The notes under the pieces were generated by a model. It did not search any database, was not told the DNA's origin, and worked only from the letters and a program-made list of their open reading frames with translations. The position numbers were made by a program, and so were the translations under genes. DNA of 64,000 nt from Hexactinellida sp. DTS-2022 (lineage: Eukaryota > Porifera > Hexactinellida): positions 1,550,001-1,614,000 of the forward strand of contig JAPNXP010000006.1 of the NCBI GenBank assembly GCA_028753945.1, given 5' to 3'. Below, one piece after another: positions 2,923 through 28,250 of this stretch (within the stretch, counting starts at the first letter, position 1; each line of letters starts with the position of its first letter).

Positions 2923-3089
2923 GTAAGTTAACAATGATTCATAGTTTCATACTGTGACGGATCCTCAGGAGTACACATAGTTGGGAGCCTTGTGTAGGTG
3001 GAAGTACGGGATAGAGTCTGTTAGGAAGCAGGGTCCGGCAGTACGACTGGTAACAGATGCCGACGGGCATAGAGCGCGGAGCGCAGAAT

Positions 3090-3139
3090 GTGGTCGAGGG
3101 TTACCCTCCTGATGAGTCCCTGTGATTGGACGAAACCAC
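3090..3139 (+). ncRNA. Hammerhead ribozyme, type III topology
   Basis: All core elements are present in order. Stem III is GTGG (3090-3093) with CCAC (3136-3139). The cleavage triplet is GTC, with cut after C3095. Stem I is GAGGG/CCCTC with a TTA loop (3096-3108). The core CTGATGA is 3109-3115. Stem II is GTCC/GGAC with an 8-nt loop (3116-3131). GAAA is 3132-3135. Every conserved nucleotide is intact, so self-cleavage of a plus-strand transcript is predicted. Stem III is only 4 bp, as in other minimal hammerheads of retroelements, which often work as dimers. Confidence 0.85.
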
Positions 3140-3331
3140 TCACGTAACATCCCTAGTGGGATGGGGTCAGCCATAGCGGCTAGTCTTCATACTAGGTCGT
3201 GGCCTCATCTCATAACATAATAACTCCGGCTTAATAACGTCGGTAGTTATTATGTTATGAGATGAGGCCACGCACTAGTATGAAGACTAGCCGCTATGGC
3301 TGACCCCATCCCACTAGGGATATTACATGTG

Positions 3332-3385
3332 TGGTTTCGTCCAATCACAGGGACTCATCAGGAGGGTAACCCTCGAGCACATTCT
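3332..3385 (-). ncRNA. Second hammerhead ribozyme copy, with a stem III mismatch
   Basis: This is the reverse-strand counterpart in the other arm. CTGATGA, GAAA, the stem I hairpin and the stem II hairpin are all kept. The stem III strand is GTGC instead of GTGG, so the pair next to the core is C-C. Outer pairs can extend through ACA/TGT. Activity is probably weaker than for the plus-strand copy. Confidence 0.6.
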
Positions 3386-3567
3386 GCGCTCCGCGCTCTA
3401 TGCCCGTCGGCATCTGTTACCAGTCGTACTGCCGGACCAGACTACAGACTACCTCGTCCATATAGTGTCCCGAACTTCCACCTACACAAGGCTCCCAACC
3501 TTATATACTCCTGAGGATCCGTCACAATACGATAACTACAAATTATCATTTTATCCATTTTTTGTAG

Positions 3568-3849
3568 AAGAGAGAGATTATGGATATTATACTCGGATGG
3601 ACAACAGATCTCTACTCCAGTGGTCTTCGAACTTTTTTCTCAGCATACCCCCTGGCTATTTTTTAACTTTACGCGTACCCCCAAGTCCCCAACATCTATG
3701 CTGAGATATTACGTACATACTTTACCGACTCGTCTCAAAGAGTGCTGGCGTACCCCCATGAGAAGCCTCGCGTACCCCTAGGGGTACGCATATCCCAGTT
3801 TGAAGACAACAGATCTCTACTCCACCCAGCTATACAGATACCCAACGTG
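3568..3849 (+). pseudogene. Terminal exon candidate split by a hAT insertion
   Basis: The exon follows TTATCCATTTTTTGTAG and continues the phase-0 frame of the exon ending at 2922. It reads KREIMDIILGWTTDLYS up to about 3617. There a 195-bp hAT-like element begins. The same 20 bases (3600-3619) recur at 3805-3824, after which the host frame would resume and reach a TAG near 3847. With the insertion in place the frame instead ends inside the element. Either this allele is disrupted, or the element supplies an alternative C-terminus. Confidence 0.45.
3618..3812. mobile_element. hAT (Charlie-like) MITE, 195 bp
   Basis: The left end CAGTGGTCTTCGAACT pairs with the right end AGTTTGAAGACAACAG, an imperfect terminal inverted repeat of a widespread animal hAT type. 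The interior has repeated GCGTACCCC motifs. Flanking direct repeats are longer (20 bp) than the usual 8-bp duplication, partly because the element's right end resembles the target. Confidence 0.7.
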
Positions 3850-7735: not shown

Positions 7736-9094
7736 TTATACTACCAGTAGAATAGCCATTACTACTAGTATTATTAGAGCAGTGCTTGAATGGCTGTTCA
7801 CAGTTCCAGAAGTAGGTGTAGTAGTTAGGGAGCTAGCTGTTGTATTTGAAGGACCAGCTCCTAACGCTTCAGTTATGCGAAGCCTTGAAGCTACACACTT
7901 GTTGTATCCATGGTATGTTATGTCTGTATTGTAGGCACCGCGAGCTAACAGTATGTAGTAACCAGGGGGATCATTTAACATGGGTGATCGTGTGACAGGT
8001 GATGAGAATGTACAATTAAGAACCCCAGCCGAATTGGTGGTAGATATTGCATTCAGATTTGAGGTAACAATGAGAGGCCGTGAGTATGAATCGGACTTTC
8101 TTTCCTCTATAGTAACACCTGTCCCTGAGCCACGGTGACACAAGAATATATTCGAATCTACCATGGTAGCAGTAGTAGAAATTCCAATGGCAATCCAACC
8201 AATACTAGCATCAGTGTACTGCAATTGGAATTCCACTATATTGCTTGCTACAGTGTGGATGCTAGCTATATTTGTATCAGATGGATTTGATGTTAAGGCA
8301 CAATCTGAAAACTGTAGGCAAATAGTACCGGGCATGCCGCACGAATGCATAGGAATAGCAGTGGTAATAGAAATTGAAGTGGAGACAGTACTCATTAAAG
8401 AGTACATAGTAGAAGATGGCATAATATTGGAGGAAGTGGGAATAGTTGAAGGAGTGGCTTCAACTGATTGAGTTGATTCGACTGATGAACTTAGAACAAT
8501 TGTTGAAGAAGGAATAGAACTTGATTCAAAAGGTGTGGCGTCAGCTATTTGCATCTTACTACTTATAACACACTTGCTAGAATGCTTATTAATATCAGTT
8601 GTATATGTACCACGGGCTAGAAGGATGTGGTAGCCAGCAGCAGCATCAAGCTGAGGAGTACGAGTTATTGGAGATGTGAACTTACAGTTAAGCACTCCAG
8701 CAGAATTGGTGGTGGATACTGTATTCAGATTTGATGTCTCAGTGGAAGGACGGCTATAGGAATTTGCAGATTTTCTTTCTTGGACAGTAACACCTCCTCC
8801 AGATGTGCGGTGACATAGAAATATGTATGCATTGGGCATGGAGGCTGAATTGGAAAACCCAATTGCAATCCAATCGATAGAAGCAGAATCAAATTGCAAT
8901 TCAAACTCTACTGTGTCTATCCCTGTTGTTGTTATGGTAGCGATATCACTGTTTGAGGTAGAGGTAGTCACTCCACAGTTTGAAAAGGCTATGCAGGTTT
9001 TGCTGGTAGAATCACAGCCATCAGCAATTTGAGCATCTGATAATGATATGTAGCAGAAAGTTAGGAACATAATATATTCTAGCATCTTGATCAT
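7736..9094 (-). CDS. Secreted two-DOMON protein with C-terminal anchor signal
   Basis: Single-exon frame of 452 residues from an ATG at 9094. Residues 1-21 are a hydrophobic signal peptide. Two homologous modules follow (about 30-175 and 255-405). Each has IDWIAIGF or IGWIAIGI, an IFLCHR strand, ERKS-SYSRP, STTNSAGVLNC and GYHILLARG or GYYILLARG, the pattern of DOMON domains such as those in ferric-chelate reductase-like proteins. A Ser/Thr-rich linker (about 185-245) separates them. A second Ser/Thr tail leads to hydrophobic residues 438-452 at the very end, as in a GPI-attachment signal, though a short membrane anchor is possible. DOMON domains bind heme or sugars; the ligand here is unknown. 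Its first module is almost identical to the frame at 11749. Confidence 0.85.
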   Translation of the reverse strand: MIKMLEYIMFLTFCYISLSDAQIADGCDSTSKTCIAFSNCGVTTSTSNSDIATITTTGIDTVEFELQFDSASIDWIAIGFSNSASMPNAYIFLCHRTSGGGVTVQERKSANSYSRPSTETSNLNTVSTTNSAGVLNCKFTSPITRTPQLDAAAGYHILLARGTYTTDINKHSSKCVISSKMQIADATPFESSSIPSSTIVLSSSVESTQSVEATPSTIPTSSNIMPSSTMYSLMSTVSTSISITTAIPMHSCGMPGTICLQFSDCALTSNPSDTNIASIHTVASNIVEFQLQYTDASIGWIAIGISTTATMVDSNIFLCHRGSGTGVTIEERKSDSYSRPLIVTSNLNAISTTNSAGVLNCTFSSPVTRSPMLNDPPGYYILLARGAYNTDITYHGYNKCVASRLRITEALGAGPSNTTASSLTTTPTSGTVNSHSSTALIILVVMAILLVV

Positions 9095-11400: not shown

Positions 11401-11748
11401 GTTATTCGTATTTAATACAGGAGCATACATTGGAATTCCAAATGGGTCACGGAGCCGTGACCCATGACTCATCTCACCTATCAATTTAGGTGACCCATCT
11501 GACCCATGGTCCACTCTGGCGTGCAAATTTACTGTGCATGCGTGCACACTAATCTTGGGTGATAGTAATTTATATTTAATATCCTTTAATTAACAGTATT
11601 CCAAAAATGTTCCTATGTAACATAATTCAAATAGAACCATTGGACTTAACAATCGACTGAATTAACCTCAGAACTATTTATCCTAAATTTCTTCTCTAAA
11701 TCCTTATACTTATCAGAAGTTTAGTAGAGTCTTTCTTTCTTTCGTACA

Positions 11749-12458
11749 ATGTTATTTATTTTCTTATTGACTTATTTACATATTTATATTTCAATATCGA
11801 ATGGGCAGATTGCAGATGGATGTGATTCTACCAGCAAAACCTGCATAGCCTTTTCAAACTGTGGAGTGACTACCTCTACCTCAAACAGTGATATCGCTAC
11901 CATAACAACAACAGGGATAGACACAGTAGAGTTTGAATTGCAATTTGATTTGCTTCTATCGATTGGATTGCAATTGGGTTTTCCAATTCAGCCTCCATGC
12001 CCAATGCATACATATTTCTATGTCACCGCACATCTGGAGGAGGTGTTACTATCCAAGAAAGAAAATCTGCAAATTCCTATAGCCGTCCTTCCACTGAGAC
12101 ATCAAATCTGAATACAGTATCCACCACCAATTCTGCTGGAGTGCTTAACTGTAAGTTCACATCTCCAATAACTCGTACTCCTCAGCTTGATGCTGCTGTT
12201 GGCTACCACATCCTTCTAGCCCGTGGTACATATACAACTGATATTAATAAGCATTCTAGCAAGTGTGTTATAAGTAGTAAGATGAAAATAGCTGACGCCA
12301 CACCTTTTGAATCAAGTTCTATTCCTTCTTCAACAATTGTTCTTTGTTCATCAGTCGAATCAACTCCATCTGTTTCTAGTATTATGTCCACTGCAACAGC
12401 TGATAATGCAGGATTATCAACTGACTCGATTTCTGTGACACTTACACGGTTTTGCTAA
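11749..12458 (+). pseudogene. Truncated, frameshifted one-DOMON paralog
   Basis: From QIADGCDST onward the protein is almost identical to the first DOMON module of the 7736-9094 gene, in the opposite orientation. A one-base deletion near 11950 (GATTCTGCT there, GATTTGCT here) shifts the frame inside the WIAIGF strand; the original frame continues from about 11997 to 12458. The first 19 residues differ but still form a hydrophobic signal peptide. After the Ser/Thr linker the sequence diverges and stops, so the second DOMON module and the anchor are missing. It may be a pseudogene, or the missing base may be an assembly error. Confidence 0.8.
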
Positions 12459-12933: not shown

Positions 12934-13116
12934 TGTAAAGTAGTAGGTAATACTAACAAACGTTATAATATAATTGACTAAGTAGCAAGATACAAAAACT
13001 AAGTAAATGCTAGGATACTATTACTATATACTAAATGCGAATCTCTACTATGACTATTGTAGTAAGTGCCCACCCAAGCAGTTGTTATAACGGTGTACCT
13101 AGTTTACTACATGACA
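12934..13116 (-). repeat. 3' LTR of the gypsy element
   Basis: 183 bp, bounded by TG and CA in plus-strand reading, and read as identical to 17461-17643. Confidence 0.95.
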
Positions 13117-13120
13117 ATCA

Positions 13121-13131
13121 CCTTCCCCTTC
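13121..13131 (-). other. Polypurine tract of the gypsy element
   Basis: On the element strand this reads GAAGGGGAAGG, four bases before the 3' LTR. This is the expected primer site for plus-strand DNA synthesis. Confidence 0.8.
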
Positions 13132-13139
13132 AAGAATTT

Positions 13140-14291
13140 CTACACTGCTGTGATTGCCTCGGTTCTAAAGTAACCTTCAAAATCCCCAAATCGATCCGGT
13201 TCCTTTCGCTTTCGGGTTGATCTTCTTGGTCCTCCACTTGCTGCGTCCGTACTCAATAGTGAATCTTCTGTTCCCATATTTTCTGTATCAATTTCTCTGT
13301 ACTCGGATCCCCCGTTATAGCTAGTCGTTAAACTAAATTCCCCTATCAATTCTCTGTTCCGCGGTGATAATTTACACCGGTTTAGATGCGCTATCTTCTT
13401 CCTCTCTGAACTAGGGTCTACCAGATTAAGGTTAACTCCTAATCTTTCCACAACTAACCAAGGCCCCAAGTATAGTGGGGAAAGCGTGCTACTTCTTGTT
13501 TCGTCTCTTACCAGAACCCAGTCCCCCGGTGAGATATTACTAGATCTTGTTTTCTGATCGTATGCGGTTTTCATTTTCTCTTGTGCAAGTTCGATATTAT
13601 CTGCTACTCTCTCATGAAGTTCAAGGTTCTTAGGACTAACAGCTTCACTATAAGAAGCAGGATCATCAAAGGTAGTGTAATCTGTTTGAGGGATGATTGT
13701 GTCAATTTCTCCCCTCAATTTTTCTCCAAACATTATTTCCTGTGGAGTGCATCTAGCATTAACCTGCGAATTGCAGATGAACGCTAATTCTTGAGTTAAT
13801 CTAGGCCAGTCAGTGCTTGAAATATTCCTTTCCTCAAGTAAGCAACGCATACACTGCTTGAAGGTTTGTATAGTCCTCTCAGCTTCCCCATCACCTTCAG
13901 GATGGTAAGCACTTGAATGCAACTTTTGAATTCCATACTTTGAGCAAACACCCCTTATGACCGCGCCATCTACGTTCGGGCATTGATCGGAGAGAAGAGC
14001 CAAGGGATAGCCGTACCTGTGAAACCAACCATATTTCAACGCTTCCGCTATAGTCGAGGCCTCCTGATTTTTCATAGGGATAGCCTCCATATATTTAGAA
14101 AATAGATCAACAATAATCAACACATATCGGTAGCCTTGAGAAGTCCAGGGTAAATATGCTATATCCATGGCGATAAGAGCGCGTGGAAAATTGTAGGGTA
14201 ACTTAAAAGGTTTGAGGGGCTCTTTCCTATCATAAGATCGCTTATTCCTTAAACAGACTTCGCAACATTTGCAAAAATTCTGAGTGTCCAA
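13140..14291 (-). CDS. gypsy pol, integrase part
   Basis: This frame continues pol after the second frame break and has no independent ATG. It holds the zinc-binding CKCCEVC stretch at its start. The catalytic triad is D43 (in AMDIAYL), D102 (in LLSDQ) and E138 (in EAERTIQ), with the classical 35-residue spacing between the last two. A GPY/F-like segment (LGPWLVVERLG) comes late in the protein, followed by a basic STRKRKEPDRFG tail. No catalytic residue is missing. It would be made only as part of the polyprotein. Confidence 0.9.
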   Translation of the reverse strand: MDTQNFCKCCEVCLRNKRSYDRKEPLKPFKLPYNFPRALIAMDIAYLPWTSQGYRYVLIIVDLFSKYMEAIPMKNQEASTIAEALKYGWFHRYGYPLALLSDQCPNVDGAVIRGVCSKYGIQKLHSSAYHPEGDGEAERTIQTFKQCMRCLLEERNISSTDWPRLTQELAFICNSQVNARCTPQEIMFGEKLRGEIDTIIPQTDYTTFDDPASYSEAVSPKNLELHERVADNIELAQEKMKTAYDQKTRSSNISPGDWVLVRDETRSSTLSPLYLGPWLVVERLGVNLNLVDPSSERKKIAHLNRCKLSPRNRELIGEFSLTTSYNGGSEYREIDTENMGTEDSLLSTDAASGGPRRSTRKRKEPDRFGDFEGYFRTEAITAV

Positions 14292-15538
14292 AACATTCCC
14301 CTCCAGAAGAACCTATCCCGAAAATCTTGGTACGTTCTTTGAACTCCTGAATGTGCCACACTATGAACGTTGCAAAGAACCACCTCCCGACAAGATTTAG
14401 GAACCACGATTCTTCTACCCCTATACAGCAACCCAGAACGATTCTTCATCTGGGAATAGCGTTTAAATTGCCCGGATTGGATGCAGCCACTCTCATCAAT
14501 GTCACTTATCGCTTTTGATATCACCAGGTCATTTTTCTGCTCCTCACACAAATTTCTGGTAAAATCAGATACTTTATCACTCTCACTAATTTGGTACACC
14601 TTCCGTTCGAAATGTTCATCCTCATTGTTTAAATCATAATCATAAGTAGTTGCACTTCGGCTTAAATAGTCTGCTACGAGGTTTTCTGATCCCTTCCTGA
14701 ATTGAATCTCGTAACACAACCCCTCTAACTCTATTAGCCACCGCGCGAATTTACCCCTCGGGTCCCTCTGGTGTCTCATCCAAACCAATGGGTTGTGATC
14801 AGAGAGAATGGTTATACCTGGAGCAGCATCTAAATATTTTCGCCATTTACGTGTGGCAGCCACTATGGCCCACGCTTCTCGTTCACCGGCACTATAACGT
14901 TTCTGGGACTCATTTAGTTGACAAGAAAAGAAGGAAATGGGACGCAATCTGCCTTCATTGTCTTTCTGTGCCAACATCCCTCCCACTGCAGAACCTGATG
15001 CATCCACTTCGAGATAATAATGGCCTTTCCAATCTGGATACCCCAGAGTAATCGGATTGTTCGTAAGTGCCTTTGACAATACTTGGTAACTGTTTTCGCA
15101 TTCTTGGTTCCATTTCCACTGAACCCCCTTTTGTGTAAGCCTATACAGTGGCACTGCTGTTTCCGCCATATTGGGAAGGAAATCTCTATAATAGCTGACT
15201 AACCCTAAGAAAGATCGCAGGCGTTTAACATCAGTAGGGCGGGCTTGTTGTTCAATTTTTCCTACAATTGAAGGTAATGGCCGGATTCCGTCTCCGCTCA
15301 AAAGATGACCAAGGAATTCGATTCTTCTATAACCAAAGTGACATTTATCACGTCTCAGTTGCAGGTTCGCTTTTCTGTAACAGTCAAGGGTTAACTGCAG
15401 ATCTCGAAGATGATCACTGAAAGTACGAGAGTGAGTCAGTGTGTCGTCTATATACGGTAATGAGCAGGGAACTTGCTTTAAAGCTTGGTCTATCAAGCGC
15501 TGATAAGTCGATGGTGCATTACATAAGCCAAAAGGCAT
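14249..15538 (-). CDS. gypsy pol, RT C-terminal half and RNase H
   Basis: It begins with MPFGLCNAPSTYQ and the catalytic YIDD at residues 29-32. The RT thumb and connection follow (FLGLVSYYRDFLP). RNase H starts with YLEVDASGSAVGG, with DHNPL later. The histidines of the integrase zinc domain (VHSVAHSG) lie near the end. It is separated from the upstream frame by a one-base break near 15551-15561 and from the downstream frame by one near 14288-14295, the latter at a T run. Both breaks lie in conserved blocks, so they are probably not programmed. Confidence 0.9.
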   Translation of the reverse strand: MPFGLCNAPSTYQRLIDQALKQVPCSLPYIDDTLTHSRTFSDHLRDLQLTLDCYRKANLQLRRDKCHFGYRRIEFLGHLLSGDGIRPLPSIVGKIEQQARPTDVKRLRSFLGLVSYYRDFLPNMAETAVPLYRLTQKGVQWKWNQECENSYQVLSKALTNNPITLGYPDWKGHYYLEVDASGSAVGGMLAQKDNEGRLRPISFFSCQLNESQKRYSAGEREAWAIVAATRKWRKYLDAAPGITILSDHNPLVWMRHQRDPRGKFARWLIELEGLCYEIQFRKGSENLVADYLSRSATTYDYDLNNEDEHFERKVYQISESDKVSDFTRNLCEEQKNDLVISKAISDIDESGCIQSGQFKRYSQMKNRSGLLYRGRRIVVPKSCREVVLCNVHSVAHSGVQRTYQDFRDRFFWRGMFWTLRIFANVAKSV

Positions 15539-17436
15539 TACCAGAAACTCGTATTGACTCTGGGAGTGACAAATGCAGTTTTTTCTATGTCATTTCTGTT
15601 GATCGGTATACTCCAATATGCACTGGCACCATCCAATGTAGAGTACAATTGACTACTTCCTAGTCTGTCTAGGATGTCACGTATATCTGGCAAAGGGTAG
15701 GAATCTTTCTGTGTGCAATTATTGAGCGCCCGAAAATCAACAACGAAACGTTTTGCACCGTCCTTTTTCTGCACTAAGATAACTCTACTCGCCCAGGGAG
15801 AATTTGATTTCTGAGTTATACCATTCGTTAGCATCTGATCCAATTGCCTTTCCATCTCCTGCTCAGTCCATGGACCTACTCTATTATACTTAGCTTTGAC
15901 AGGTCTTGACCTTCCTGTTTCGATAATATGCTCAGTCATATGTGTAGTCTTAGGGCTTTTGGGGTTCACTGCAAATACATCCGAGTACTCCATCAATAAT
16001 CTGAGAATAGATTGGTGTTGTGTGGGATCCAATTCTGTGTTAATGTCCCAAGCCTGACCAGGCGACTCACAAGGCTCTTCGATACCAACACTGTTAACAA
16101 CTTTCGCGCGTGATAAAAGTTCCCCTCCATGCAATGAAGCCTCAGTGGGAAGCCAAATGTGACCGAGACGAACCCTGTAATTTGCCCAATCAAATTCTGT
16201 TGAATTGAATTGCGATAAAAAATCTCTCCCCAAAATTATGGTCAATTCGTATGAATCCAGAATCAGGAATTCGTGGGTAATTGTATTCTTCTGGCCAATA
16301 TCAACCACTAATCGAGCTTTTCCCAAAGTCCCAACAGGAGTTGCCCCCACCACATGAATGCGACTCGGACAAGCAGCAAAGTTCACCCCAAGAGATGACA
16401 GTGTTCCTTTATCCACGATACTAGGCTGTGCACCTGAATCAAGCATCGCAACGAAAGGAGAATTATTCAATTTAATTCGAATCACTACTGCTGACTCACT
16501 AACTTCCTGGGACTGTTCTTTCAAGTTAACCAAATTAACTTTATTTCTAGACTTGCAGTTACGGCGGTCGTGGCCTCTTTTGCCACAATGCTGACAAAAT
16601 TGGTCGGGGCAACCTCGAGCAAAATGTCCTTCAGTCCCACATATGAAACAGCCAGGGTTACGGTTTGTCCAGGCCCCGGAGTTCGTAGTTCCTCGTGGAT
16701 ATCGTCTATTCCATTTTCTTCCACCTTGATATCGGACTGTATTTACACGTTCATTGGGAGGGTTTGTACCTTGCCCGATAGTTTTCCCGATGTCTCTGTG
16801 ATCTTCATGTACCTCACTTGGCAAACTTGCGAGCCCTTTTTCATTCACTCCATCCACTGGCCCTTCGTCATGTACTTGACATACTCGTGAAAAGTCTCGA
16901 TTACCCTTGTCCAAAGCAATTCCTTTTTCGGTAAGAGTATGTCGCACATATTCAATAAACGCGCGGGCTTGTTTTGAATCAATTTCTTCCCTTGTTGCCA
17001 GCCAATCCTTCAAGGATCCTTGAACTGGAGTAGGCAACTGAGCAACTAGGAGAGTACACACCATGCTCAAAGGAGCATATGCGTGATCGCCATCCACTTT
17101 TAGTTGATAGAAGTAATCGTCAACCAATACGCTTGGTTCCCAGTCTTGGCGGCAGAGTGATACCATAGCGTGCGTCCGATCAATTGGAGGGTCCAATGTT
17201 CGGAGTGTTTCAAAAGCTTCGTCAAGTACCTTCGCTTCTTTAACTACTTCACGTACAACTTCACGTTCTGCGGGTCTTCTACAAACGTATGCAGGTAAAA
17301 TACTAATCGCAAACTTCTCCCCTCCTTCCTGAGTCAATAGAGAGGCTACGGAAGCTCTGAAGAAATGTTCCCACTCGGTAATTGTTTGGTCCTTGAGAAG
17401 GGGAGGTATATTCAAGTTACCGAAGCCGGCTGCCAT
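15538..17436 (-). CDS. gypsy gag, protease and RT N-terminal half
   Basis: 632 residues from an ATG only 24 bases after the 5' LTR. Gag occupies about the first 250 residues. Two CCHC zinc knuckles (CFICGTEGHFARGC and CQHCGKRGHDRRNC) lie near 260-295. The aspartic protease has its DSG near 333 and ILGRDF near 400. RT begins around 500 (KKDGAKRFVVDFRALNNC, then LYSTLDGASAYWSIPI). Gag and pol share one frame, so the element needs no gag-pol frameshift, as in Tf1-like elements. The frame ends prematurely at the break just before the YIDD region. Confidence 0.92.
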   Translation of the reverse strand: MAAGFGNLNIPPLLKDQTITEWEHFFRASVASLLTQEGGEKFAISILPAYVCRRPAEREVVREVVKEAKVLDEAFETLRTLDPPIDRTHAMVSLCRQDWEPSVLVDDYFYQLKVDGDHAYAPLSMVCTLLVAQLPTPVQGSLKDWLATREEIDSKQARAFIEYVRHTLTEKGIALDKGNRDFSRVCQVHDEGPVDGVNEKGLASLPSEVHEDHRDIGKTIGQGTNPPNERVNTVRYQGGRKWNRRYPRGTTNSGAWTNRNPGCFICGTEGHFARGCPDQFCQHCGKRGHDRRNCKSRNKVNLVNLKEQSQEVSESAVVIRIKLNNSPFVAMLDSGAQPSIVDKGTLSSLGVNFAACPSRIHVVGATPVGTLGKARLVVDIGQKNTITHEFLILDSYELTIILGRDFLSQFNSTEFDWANYRVRLGHIWLPTEASLHGGELLSRAKVVNSVGIEEPCESPGQAWDINTELDPTQHQSILRLLMEYSDVFAVNPKSPKTTHMTEHIIETGRSRPVKAKYNRVGPWTEQEMERQLDQMLTNGITQKSNSPWASRVILVQKKDGAKRFVVDFRALNNCTQKDSYPLPDIRDILDRLGSSQLYSTLDGASAYWSIPINRNDIEKTAFVTPRVNTSFW

Positions 17437-17445
17437 CCAAAGAAG

Positions 17446-17459
17446 AGTTTTTGTATCTT
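17446..17459 (-). other. Putative self-primer binding site
   Basis: On the element strand the leader starts one base after the LTR with AAGATACAAAAACT. Exactly this 14-mer is complementary to AGTTTTTGTATCTT within the LTR (17514-17527). No TGG start typical of tRNA-primed elements is present at the leader start. This matches the self-priming layout known from Tf1 and sushi-type elements. Confidence 0.7.
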
Positions 17460-17460
17460 A

Positions 17461-17643
17461 TGTAAAGTAGTAGGTAATACTAACAAACGTTATAATATAA
17501 TTGACTAAGTAGCAAGATACAAAAACTAAGTAAATGCTAGGATACTATTACTATATACTAAATGCGAATCTCTACTATGACTATTGTAGTAAGTGCCCAC
17601 CCAAGCAGTTGTTATAACGGTGTACCTAGTTTACTACATGACA
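17461..17643 (-). repeat. 5' LTR of the gypsy element
   Basis: 183 bp. On the element strand, U3 would be about 116 bp, R would start at the self-complementary segment, and the leader follows directly after the LTR. Confidence 0.95.
17551..17557 (-). promoter_or_regulatory. LTR TATA box
   Basis: TATATAG on the element strand begins 30 bases upstream of A17527, the first base of the segment complementary to the leader. This is the standard TATA-to-start distance and places the predicted RNA 5' end at the self-primer. Confidence 0.6.
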
Positions 17644-24059: not shown

Positions 24060-27000
24060 TCCTCAACTTGTAGTTCCTAAATGGGGGTTTGAATTTTTGA
24101 ATAAATGGGGGTTGAAATTTACTTGTTTACTCACACTTCAATTTCAGTAAAGTGTTAAATCTAATTCTATTGTTTCAACTTGTAGCAATTATATTGATTT
24201 AACTTGTTAAATCCTACTCTAGTGATTCAACTTGCGATAATTATAATGATTCAACTTATAAATTCCAGCTGGCTTCTATTTAATTGTAGTATTACTATAC
24301 AATGGATAAAATAATATAATATAATATAAGGAATTTGTTGACTCAACTCAACCAACCGTGGATAACATTGCTAAAATAAATTACTAATAATATATTTTAT
24401 TATCAATACATAATGAATGAATGGCAGTAAACTCAAGATGGTTTATGATAGAAACTAACTTCAAATTTATCTACCGTTCCTTGTGACTCCGACCAATTAA
24501 CAAATGGTTCTTCACACCTTGGGCGTTGATGACTGGGCGAAAAAAATCCAAAATTGCAGCCTGTGCCGAAAGCATGTTCCTTTGGAGGCACTATCAGTAA
24601 ACAACCAAAAAAAAATCCAAAATCGCAGCCTGTGCCGCCGCATGTTCCTTTGGTGGCACTATATTTTTGTGTTGTTTATTGATAGTGCCTCCAAAGGAAC
24701 ATGCTGTCGGCGCAGGCTGCGATTTTGGATTTTTTTTCGCCAAGTCATCAACGCCCAAGGTGTGAAGAAGCATTTGTTATTTGTTCCGAGTCACAAGGAA
24801 CGGTAAATAAATTTGAAGTTTGTTTCTATCTTAAACCATCTTGAGTTTAATGCCATTAATCCATTATGTATTGATAATAAAGTATATTACTAGTTATATA
24901 TTTAAGCAATGTTATCCACGGTTGAGTTGAATTAAGTCAACAAATTCCTTATTTAATTTAATTTGATTTAATTCAGTAAATAGAAGCCAGCTGGAATTTA
25001 TAAGTTAAATCAATATAATTATCGCAAGTTGAATCACTAGAGTAGGATTTAACAAGTTAAATCAATATAATTATTACAAGTTGAAACAATAGAATTAGAT
25101 TTAACACTTTTACTGAAATTGAAGTGTGAGTAAACAAAGAAATTTCAAACCCCATTTATGGCAGAAATTAAACATATTTTTGAAAATATTCTTCTCCCAA
25201 TCAGACGCATAATTTTATGGTGAATCCAAATGTGAAATAAAATTTGGGGGTTTAGTAAAACATATTTTGAGTTATGGACCAGACAAATTTGGAAAGGTGT
25301 TAAAGATGTGTCAAAAATTCGTTAATCAAAAATCGTAACCCCAGGTGCAAATCAGACGTCGACTCCGAACCAACATTCCAAGTTTTAGCCCTCTATGTAT
25401 ATAGGTGTGGCCAGGGCACCTGCTACGGAGAAATAAAAATAAAAAAATCCAAAATTGCAGCCTGTGCCGACGCATGTTCCTTTGGTGGCACTATATTTTT
25501 GTGTTGTTTATTGATAGTGCCTCCAAAGGAACATGCTGTCGGCGCAGGCTGCAATTTTGGATTTTTTTTCGCCAAGTCATCAACGCCCAAGATGTGAAGA
25601 ACCATTTGCTAATTGGTCGGAGTTACAAGGAACTGTAGATAAATTTGAAGTTAGTTTCTATCATAAACCATCAAGAGTTTAATGCCATTCATTCATTATG
25701 TATTGATAATAAATTATATTATTAGTAATTTATTTTAGCAATGTTATCCACGGTTGTTTGAGTTGAGTCAACAAATTCCTTATATTATTATAATTTATTT
25801 AATCCATTGTATAGTAATACTAGAATTAAATAGAAGCCAGCTGGAATTTATAAGTTGAATCAATTTAATTATCGCAAGTTGAAACAATAGTGAAAGATTT
25901 AACAAGTTAAATCAATATAATTATTACAAGTTGAAACAATGGAATTAGATTTCACAGTTTTATTGAAATTGAAGTGTCGAGTAAACAAAGGAATTTCAAC
26001 CCCCATTAATGGCAGAAATTAAACCAATTTTAACAAATTTTCTTCTCCCATCAGACGCAAAATTTTAAGATGAATCTAAATATGAAATAAAATTTTGGGG
26101 TTTATTAAAACATATTTTGAGTTATGGACCAGACAAATTTTGAAAGGTGTTAAAGATGTGTCAAAAATTTGTTAATCAAAAATCGTAACCCCAGGTGCAA
26201 ATTAGACGGTCCCATCGCACCTACATGCCAAGTTTCAGCCCATCAACAATTAAGCTCTTGCCAGGGCACCGTATACGGAGAAAAAATAATAAAAAAAAAT
26301 CCAAAATTGCAGCCTGCGCCGACGCATGTTCCTTTCGTGGCACTATATTTTGTTGATGGTTTATTGATAGTGCCTCCAAAGGAACATGCTGTCGGCGCAG
26401 GCTGCAATTTTGGATTTTTTTTCGCCAAGTCATCAACGCCCAAGGTGTGAAGAAGCATTTGTTATTTGGTCCGAGTCACAAGGAACAGTAGATAAATTTG
26501 AAGTTTGTTTCTATCATAAACCATCTAGAGTTTAATGCCATTCATTCATTATGTATTGATAATAAATTATATTATTAGTTAGTTATTTTAGCAATGTTAT
26601 CCACGGTGATTTGAGTTTAGTCAACAAATTCCTTATATTATTATATTTTATTTAATCCATTGTATAGTAATACTAGAATAAAATAGAAGCCAGCTGGAAT
26701 TTATAAGTTGAATCAATTTAATTATCGCAAGTTGAAACAATAGTGAAAGCTTTAACAAGTTAAATCAATATAATTATTACAAGTTGAAACAATGGAATTA
26801 GATTTCACAGTTTTATTGAAATAAAGTGTTGAGTAAACAAAGGAATTTCAACCCCCATTTATGGCAGAAATTAAACCAATTTTAACTAATTTTCTTCTCC
26901 CATCAGACGCAGAATTTTATGGTGAATCCAAATGTGAAATAAAATTTGGGGGTTTAGTAAAACATTTTTCTAGCTATGGACCAGACAAATTTTGAAAGGT

Positions 27001-28250
27001 GTTAAAGATGTGTCCAAAACGTGTTAATCAAAAATCGTAACCCCAGGTGCAAATTAGACGGTCCATACGCACCTACATGCCAAGTTTCAGCCCATCAACT
27101 ATAAAGCTCAGGCCAGGGCACCGTCTACGGAGAAAAAATAAAAATAATAATAAAAATAAAGGCAGTGATTCCAATACTGGGCCACTATACTATAGTATAG
27201 TCGGCACAGTAAAAATAAAGGCAGTGATTCTAATACTGGGCCACTATACTATAGTATAGTCGGCACAGTAATAATAAAAATAAAGGCAGTAAGATTAGAA
27301 CTGGGCCACTATACTATAGTATAGTCGGCACAGTAAAAATATAGTGCCATCAAAGGAACATGCGTCGGCACAGGCTGCAATTTTGTATTTTTTAATTGTT
27401 TTTCTCCGTAGCAGGTGCCCTGGCCACACCTATATACATAGAGGGCTGAAACTTGGCATGTAGGTTCGGAGTCGACGTTTAATTTGCACCTGGGGTTACG
27501 ATTTTTTATTAACAAATTTTGGACACATCTTTAACACCTTTCAAAATTTGTCTGGTCCACAACTCAAAATATGTTTTACTAATGCCCCCAAATTTTATTT
27601 CACATTTGGACTCACCATAAAATTCTGCGTCTGATGAGATAAGAAATTTTTTAATAATGGGTTTAATTTCTGCCATAAATGGGGGTTGAAATTTCTTTGT
27701 TTACCTACAATTCAGTTTCAATAAAACTGTTAAATCTAATTCCATTGTTTCAACTTGTAATAATTATATTGATTTAACTTGTTAAATCCTACTCTATTGA
27801 TTCAACTTGCGATAATTATATTGATTTAACTTATAAATTCCAGCTGGCTTCTATTTAATTGTAGTATTACTATACAATGGATTAAATAAAATATAATAAT
27901 ATAAGGAATTTGTCGACTCAACTCAAATCACCGTGGGTAACATTGTTAAATTAATTAAACATTATATTATAATTTATTATCAATACATATGGCATTAAAC
28001 TCAAGATGGTTTATGATAGAAACAATCTTCAAATTTATCTACCGTTCCTTGTGACTCGGACCAATTAACAAATGGTTCTTGACGCCTTGAGGCGTTGATG
28101 ACTTGGCGAAAAAAATCCAAAATTGCAGCCTGTGCCGACAGCATGTTCCTTTGGAGGCACTATCAATAAACCACCAACAAAATATAGTGCCACCAAAGGA
28201 ACATGCGTCGGCGCAGCTGCAATTTTGGATTTTTATTATTATCAGTCCGT
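24060..28250. mobile_element. Array of about 0.8-kb TIR elements joined by hairpins
   Basis: At least five copies of one unit occur. One truncated reverse copy lies left of about 24590. Three forward copies start near 24680, 25517 and 26368. One reverse copy spans about 27342-28165, and another starts near 28185. Each unit begins ATAGTGCCTCCAAAGGAACA and ends with the reverse of it. Neighbouring units are separated by about 20 bp, so each junction folds into a hairpin with arms of about 50 bp. Shared interior landmarks are CCAGCTGGAATTTATAAGTT and GTAACCCCAGGTGCAAAT. All ORFs here are non-coding shadows. Tandem amplification of a non-autonomous DNA transposon is the simplest reading. Confidence 0.8.
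27148..27341. repeat. Three tandem copies of a palindrome-bearing unit of about 65 bp
   Basis: Each unit contains ATACTGGGCCACTATA, the perfect palindrome ACTATACTATAGTATAGT, and CGGCACAGTAAAAATAAA. It replaces the right end of the third forward unit in the TIR array. Degenerate copies lie at 18460-18560. Confidence 0.85.

Follow-up and report, generated by a model that had tools for sequence, protein, structure and literature searches.

The window, a 64-kb stretch of glass-sponge DNA (64,000 nucleotides), contains at 2953-3526 a 574-bp palindrome with one type III hammerhead ribozyme per arm, built of two long terminal repeats (LTRs) that lie tail to tail. It starts with TGTGACGG and ends with CCGTCACA. 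The boundaries 2953 and 3526 are exact: the ends are homologous to those of related elements, and an exact 4-bp target-site duplication (TSD), ATAC/ATAC (2949-2952 and 3527-3530), lies just outside them and around the whole. The foldback described in an earlier note on this DNA is real, and its limits were given correctly. Each arm corresponds to one LTR, TGTGACGG...CATAACA. The left LTR (2953-3217, 265 bp, TGTGACGG...CTCATAACA), with its ends set by homology to solo LTRs, is in sense orientation on the plus strand, and the right LTR (3253-3526, 274 bp), defined by sequence comparison, is inverted on the minus strand. The centre of the palindrome is a hairpin (3211-3259) with a 15-bp stem and a 19-nt loop. 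It resembles the hairpin located after the LTR in full-length relatives, and we propose it as primer or primer-binding site; beyond its 3' arm follows the reverse complement of the LTR.

The arms 3032-3225 and 3245-3438 are 97% complementary with 19 nt between them, which bears out the 19-nt centre noted earlier, and the outer arms 2947-3011 and 3468-3532 are 89% complementary. The two arms could in principle have been an assembly duplication. This was checked and is not the case, since the arms show 16 differences in 276 ungapped columns, plus indels, and since the nearest loci of one U3 block differ between the left arm (L010 and L044) and the right arm (L003). A microRNA in the foldback was considered and rejected: MIR4371 scored 86 and 84.6 against a gathering score of 110, and mir-6096 29.8 against 100. 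These matches reflect merely a long hairpin.

Several other features lie in the window. An exact 20-bp direct repeat (3600-3619 and 3805-3824) surrounds a 185-bp TACCCC-rich insert with inverted ends and adjoins the foldback. A DOMON gene (7736-9094, minus strand), whose protein has 11 database matches, one of them from a rotifer, is accompanied by a broken inverted copy (11728-12458, plus strand). A resident Ty3/gypsy element, recognized from its sequence and Pfam domains (RVT_1, RNase H, integrase, and protease), occupies 12934-17643 on the minus strand and is a candidate source of enzymes. Its LTRs (12934-13116 and 17461-17643) are 183 bp long and identical, and it has the TSD CTAT, the polypurine tract GGGAAGGTGA, and a Tf1-type self-priming site. 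The element is young, and its pol is split among three overlapping frames. Tandem units of about 52 or 24 bp that are related to one another occur in both orientations at 24153-27836 and recur at 24.2, 25.0, 25.8, 26.7, and 27.7 kb. Finally, the window encodes a TEX261-like protein with 84% identity to its counterpart in the glass sponge Oopsacas minuta and 94% to another database protein; the 88 matches listed for it carry PF04148, and those named to species are animals. The protein comparison points to a glass sponge as the very probable host.

Both ribozymes were scored against the Rfam model RF00008 for the type III hammerhead, which has a gathering score of 48.5. The copy at 3088-3141 on the plus strand reached 53.7 bits, with an E value of 4.6e-9 over the 64-kb window, and the full hammerhead motif claimed earlier for this strand was thereby borne out. 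The copy at 3329-3382 on the minus strand reached 47.3 bits (E 7.1e-9 in a 1.5-kb scan), slightly under the cut-off, because of a C-C mismatch in stem III, adjacent to the cleavage site. The stem III mismatch attributed to this copy is thus confirmed. Cleavage of the plus-strand copy is predicted after 3095, the position proposed earlier, in agreement with a GTC at 3093-3095. The core pattern CTGATGAG-N14-CGAAAC was found twice in the 64-kb window, both times in these hammerheads, and not once in 100 shuffles.

The earlier note also supposed that a read-through transcript would have its arms folded together. Indeed, a near-perfect hairpin is predicted for it (minimum free energy (MFE) -522.6 kcal/mol, 89.5% of bases paired). 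The predicted MFE structure of the left arm alone does not contain the ribozyme fold; the isolated 54-nt plus-strand copy folds as a hammerhead. Judging from these predicted folds, the window copy is probably an inert by-product that is poor at self-cleavage.

Related copies were searched for in the 112-Mb assembly of 18 contigs that contains the window. The DNA search gave 116 matches and the covariance search 68 ribozyme matches, of which 64 scored above the RF00008 cut-off. None of 14 control genomes had a match over this cut-off, and sub-threshold matches were present in seven of them. Merging of 150 coordinates, from which duplicates on the opposite strand and some of the short secondary matches had been omitted, resulted in at least 132 places, multimers included. 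This number is a lower bound, because the searches score only the best candidates. The genome-wide search that the earlier note had called for therefore did reveal further copies. A few places (e.g., L061 and L069) match the internal region only and have no ribozyme. An exact 27-mer of the ribozyme had no match in viral_contigs and none in genome_contigs, from which records of the sponge's own genome were possibly excluded.

We examined 54 loci of the family. Only 11 of them are palindromic, and the remainder are single LTRs, direct repeats, or fragments; L029, which has two ribozyme units in inverted orientation at a distance of about 1 kb, was left outside the palindrome count. The head-to-head pair is therefore not the standing design of the element. 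Solo LTRs, such as L051-L054, L041, and L079, measure about 269-328 bp in subfamily A and 231-238 bp in subfamily B. L064 and L088 have the organization LTR-internal-LTR, L086 is a direct LTR-LTR dimer, and L004 is a 2.2-kb multimer with five LTRs that is palindromic as well. The cleanest complete element, L064, is 834 bp long (330-174-330) and has the TSD TACT, LTRs that are identical at 329 of 330 positions, and a polypurine tract, AAAAAGGGAAGGTGA, immediately 5' of the second LTR. Its two predicted cleavage sites are separated by 504 nt, which would be the unit released (54% GC). For this predicted unit, the circular MFE has a z-score of -7.3 (60 shuffles), and the predicted paired fraction of 0.67 is barely over the 0.65 of the shuffles.

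Two further observations were made among the single LTRs. L084 (C12:5345959-5346215) comprises an LTR and the hairpin and stops there; internal region, fold-back arm, and an exact TSD at these ends are all absent. L080, L081, and L083 (C15:2963812, C14:4210855, and C14:1128223) carry the same solo LTR in the same immediate flanks and apparently represent a single insertion that was duplicated afterwards along with its surroundings.

For an analysis of constraint, 41 of the 44 distinct ribozyme copies were aligned; the three omitted are L005:1830 with an insertion, L089 with a deletion, and L092, whose left half is replaced. In this alignment, 98.4% of the stem cells are paired. Changes on both sides of a stem affect five pairs and 26 cells, a level as high as this being found in none of 500 shuffles. 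This stem covariation also supports the assignment of the plus-strand ribozyme of the window. Comparison of seven subfamily LTRs revealed an identity of 0.83-0.98 for the ribozyme versus 0.49-0.86 for the remaining LTR, and the ribozyme value was higher in 21 of 21 comparisons. These sequence patterns indicate that the family ribozyme is under structural constraint. Close to the retrozyme palindrome at L005, a hammerhead-like core of another kind, CTGATGAGGCC...GGCCGAAA, was noticed at L005:2693 (plus strand); it scored below the gathering score of every Rfam family.

Well-formed hammerhead motifs and related copies throughout the genome substantiate the suggestion that the foldback belongs to a retrozyme-type mobile element. 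The other suggestion made earlier, a Penelope-like element or its pseudo-LTR, has in its favor that Penelope-like elements can bear hammerheads, as stated in the available text of PMC7229834. The ribozyme here is of type III, however, the LTRs have TG...CA ends, target duplications are 4 bp long, and some copies possess a gypsy-like polypurine tract. Moreover, the reverse transcriptases met at the loci we read belong to elements with LTRs and gypsy-type sites. The Penelope assignment was therefore dropped as the most improbable of all explanations. Instead, we consider the foldback, with a probability of roughly 80%, to be a copy, inserted in an animal genome, of a small LTR retrotransposon that is non-autonomous and bears hammerheads in its LTRs, i.e., an LTR retrozyme.

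Target duplications provided information on how the elements were inserted. Element ends at the 54 loci were set by homology, blind to the TSD. L080 and L081, which share their flanks with L083, were dropped from the count, only loci with both ends detectable entered it, and L084, with its LTR plus hairpin, was kept out of the solo LTRs. Exact 4-bp duplications were found at 12 of 23 solo LTRs (five of the other 11 match at three of four positions) and at all three full-length or dimeric elements (L064, L088, and L086). Among the eight elements with two inverted U3 ends, six have an exact 4-bp duplication around the whole (the window copy, L004, L008, L042, L087, and L090), and none was found at L013 and L015. 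Overall, 21 of 34 two-ended loci have an exact TSD, compared to 9 of 1122 combinations in a control that paired left and right flanks across loci. A duplication around the whole element implies insertion as a palindrome; as far as the flanking sequences tell, the elements that have one entered the genome already palindromic.

This result bears directly on the idea that a solo LTR was inserted in inverted orientation beside another one. Solo LTRs are common, and L013 is compound with no TSD around the whole, which fits nested insertion. The duplication around six of the eight elements with two inverted U3 ends argues against such an origin, and ATAC/ATAC contradicts it for the window copy. In addition, no target duplication was seen when the joints were read by eye, and 7 of the 11 palindromic loci turn at the hairpin. 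Nested insertion is thus an unlikely source of these palindromes. An inverted repeat with a short target duplication would also be expected of a miniature inverted-repeat DNA transposon (foldback or MITE) that has captured a hammerhead. Most loci are not palindromic, however, solo LTRs with the same ends have the exact 4-bp duplication in 12 of 23 cases, and direct LTR-internal-LTR elements with a polypurine tract, such as L064, contradict this explanation, which we regard as very improbable.

A possible link between the LTR retrozyme and resident gypsy elements was found at the polypurine tract. The box GGGAAGGTGA lies immediately or one base 5' of the 3' LTR of the window gypsy, and it borders the 3' LTR on its 5' side in the retrozymes L004 and L064 and in the gypsies A and B. 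A genome-wide pattern based on GGGAAGGTGA matched 10 sites, compared to one in the reversed control. Four of the 10 are in L004 and L064, three in the window gypsy family, two in gypsy B (L093 and L094), and one is at C1:12881216. Among the six retrozyme loci whose tract was read, the box occurs in two (L004 and L064); L088, L090, and L091 have the tract GGAAGGGAACCTGA, and that of L008 is degenerate. A reverse transcriptase (RVT_1, E 2e-29) is encoded by gypsy B, the LTRs of which have the ends TGTGAT...TCATCACA and in this respect look similar to retrozyme subfamily B. One or two bases past their 5' LTR, gypsies A and B carry a 14-nt exact reverse complement of position 117 and 113, respectively, of their own LTR, that is, a self-priming stretch.

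The retrozymes differ in this respect. In the four retrozymes compared with their own LTR, the longest complement was 7 nt, and a Tf1-type self-priming site is thus absent from all four. A tRNA primer-binding site after the LTR is marked by a TGG start. None was seen by eye in the subfamilies read, in which the sequence after the LTR starts with TAATAAC, TAATATC, TAAGTAC, TTATAAC, TCATAAC, or TTAGTAC. At this position, we found the hairpin. Its 5' arm is formed by the last seven bases of the LTR and the next eight, and its 3' arm lies past a short loop. In seven families, the own arms pair at 14.7 of 15 positions on average versus 12.2 for arms swapped between families (L015, with a 3' arm one base shorter, was omitted from these means). 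Eight positions have changed on both sides, and position 15 is unpaired in two of the seven families. In the source copies of six of the seven families, the hairpin is followed by internal sequence, which indicates that it did not simply arise as palindromes formed. Self-copying of a hairpin could, however, maintain complementary arms in the absence of selection.

We infer a priming role in reverse transcription for the hairpin and a fold-back origin for the palindromes. In such a scheme, the LTRs of the retrozyme would be transcribed, and the hammerheads would cut the RNA into a unit of about 500 nt, which would circularize and be mobilized by the reverse transcriptase and integrase of a gypsy element. 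Minus-strand synthesis would begin neither at a tRNA nor at the transcript 5' end; the start that we somewhat favor is the hairpin 3' arm just past the LTR, acting either in cis or on another molecule. Where the hairpin stayed attached to the cDNA, a palindrome with two U3 ends would result that could still be inserted by integrase, and the window copy would be a by-product of such hairpin-joined synthesis.

The position of the turn was determined for all 11 palindromic loci. Seven turn at the hairpin (the window copy, L003, L004, L005, L015, L042, and L089), L005 with a six-base extension and L089 with U5 skipped in one arm. Of the others, L008 and L090 turn inside U3, L087, in which two different U5 types are joined, has its turn in the internal region at a small inverted repeat, and L013 is compound. 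The different nearest loci of the window arms mean that snap-back of a single molecule is insufficient, and they call for a second template or for gene conversion at a later stage. Some palindromes must therefore involve either two templates, which pair via their self-complementary hairpins, or gene conversion after the event.

Snap-back of plus-strand DNA is a serious alternative. According to this explanation, a DNA strand that begins at the polypurine tract is extended through the LTR and the hairpin, and its 3' end then folds back and copies to its own 5' end; normal priming takes another route. Exact U3 ends on both sides follow with no further assumptions, and turns elsewhere (L008, L090, and L087) require no primer hairpin. 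However, snap-back gives no account of a covarying hairpin exactly at the primer-binding-site position, nor of the missing self-priming site in the four tested retrozymes, and the closed hairpin end would still have to be opened or copied. We regard plus-strand snap-back as possible, though not as the probable course.

Returning to the hairpin as a primer, its broadest form is that retrozymes which use neither a tRNA nor Tf1-type 5'-end priming carry a built-in primer hairpin at the LTR border, and that the palindromes are fossils of such self-priming, whether in cis or between two RNAs packaged together. To this we give even odds. If it holds, both priming modes would have been given up because an RNA that is cut by its ribozymes and circular has no transcript 5' end.

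One subfamily may provide a view of priming between molecules. In L088, L090, and L091 (C10:1592350-1593080, C15:2980030-2980640, and C16:4738400-4739000), the 5' LTR is without the usual U5 and without the 5' hairpin arm. L088 has a normal 3' LTR and L091 a nearly complete one; L090 is truncated. L088 and L090 lie at separate sites with their own TSD each. In L088 and L091, the U5 parts of the 5' and the 3' LTR differ, which is not predicted by a simple circle model. Unequal LTRs that persist through transposition suggest that this subfamily was primed on a different retrozyme RNA.

If the built-in primer reading is true, the palindromes would directly reveal how retrozyme RNA is converted into DNA. 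In the available text of the retrozyme papers, the priming of this RNA for reverse transcription is given as a model only (PMC4918200, PMC7229834). A covarying hairpin at the primer-site position, together with self-priming gypsies as candidate partners, bears on the question, and the palindromic insertions with TSD would record fold-back products. The same papers, as far as their available text goes, assign type III LTR retrozymes to plants and LTR-less type I retrozymes to animals. An LTR retrozyme family in a glass sponge either removes this divide between plants and animals or implies a second origin. Our literature search (titles and abstracts, best matches, with subscription journals mostly and preprints wholly outside its range) yielded no animal LTR retrozyme, and the two papers it listed for palindromic or inverted LTR cDNA both deal with adeno-associated virus.

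Type III hammerheads as such have precedents in animals, being known from HDV-like circular RNAs and from termite and dipteran genomes (PMC7936874). Those ribozymes share with the sponge copies the type and the location in animal genomes. In the text available, they are described as having a pseudoknot and greater lengths of helices I and II, and an LTR context is not mentioned; helix I of the sponge ribozyme has 5 bp and a 3-nt loop. Penelope-like elements, for which a minimal type I hammerhead is reported in the accessible part of PMC7229834, carry it in pseudo-LTRs, unlike the type III ribozyme in TG...CA LTRs found here. Metazoan non-LTR retrozymes are described, in the parts of PMC7229834 and PMC7761336 available, as type I tandem repeats without LTR, primer-binding site, or polypurine tract, and with longer TSDs when present (PMC7229834). 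The sponge family resembles them in its animal host, its hammerhead, its small unit, and the apparent lack of a protein, and differs in the type III ribozyme, the LTR, the polypurine tract, and the 4-bp TSD (comparison with the available text of PMC7229834).

With respect to priming, Tf1 and Tj1 are self-priming LTR retrotransposons that use no tRNA and take the 5' end of the transcript as primer, according to the available text of PMC4600332. Gypsies A and B directly fit this pattern. The four tested retrozymes do not, as they lack a complement of their own LTR longer than 7 nt and have a hairpin adjoining the LTR instead. Miniature LTR elements (TRIMs) of bivalves are likewise animal elements in which the tRNA site is unclear and the inner domain sometimes holds a hairpin, as far as described in PMC6934838, the main text of which contains neither "hammerhead" nor "retrozyme". 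As nearest precedent for the sponge hairpin, fungal GalEa/Copia elements have a Conserved Hairpin Site, which lies at the same position, directly after the 5' LTR, and was proposed as a substitute for the primer-binding site (PMC5445492). GalEa is a fungal Copia element, its hairpin has 9-nt arms with a fixed mismatch, and the text of PMC5445492 available mentions neither a ribozyme nor palindromic insertions.

The closest relatives by organization are the plant LTR retrozymes. As described in the available text of PMC4918200, these have a type III hammerhead in LTRs of about 330 bp, a short internal region, a 4-bp TSD, a polypurine tract resembling that of resident Ty3/gypsy elements, and a tRNA-Met primer-binding site, and their RNAs hold the ribozyme in a blocked conformation. 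The sponge family agrees with this description in ribozyme type, LTR size, TSD length, and short internal region, in the gypsy-like polypurine tract of some copies (two of the six read), in the occurrence of solo, dimeric, and multimeric copies, and in a ribozyme that is predicted to be blocked. It differs in its animal host, in a unit of 504 nt compared to about 600-1000 nt, in the recurrent palindromic insertions, and in the hairpin that replaces the tRNA-Met primer-binding site after the LTR. Since no TGG site is present and a hairpin takes its place, the sponge element is a variant LTR retrozyme and not a plant-type member. It appears to be a mobile RNA of the kind described in plants that was copied back on itself before insertion.
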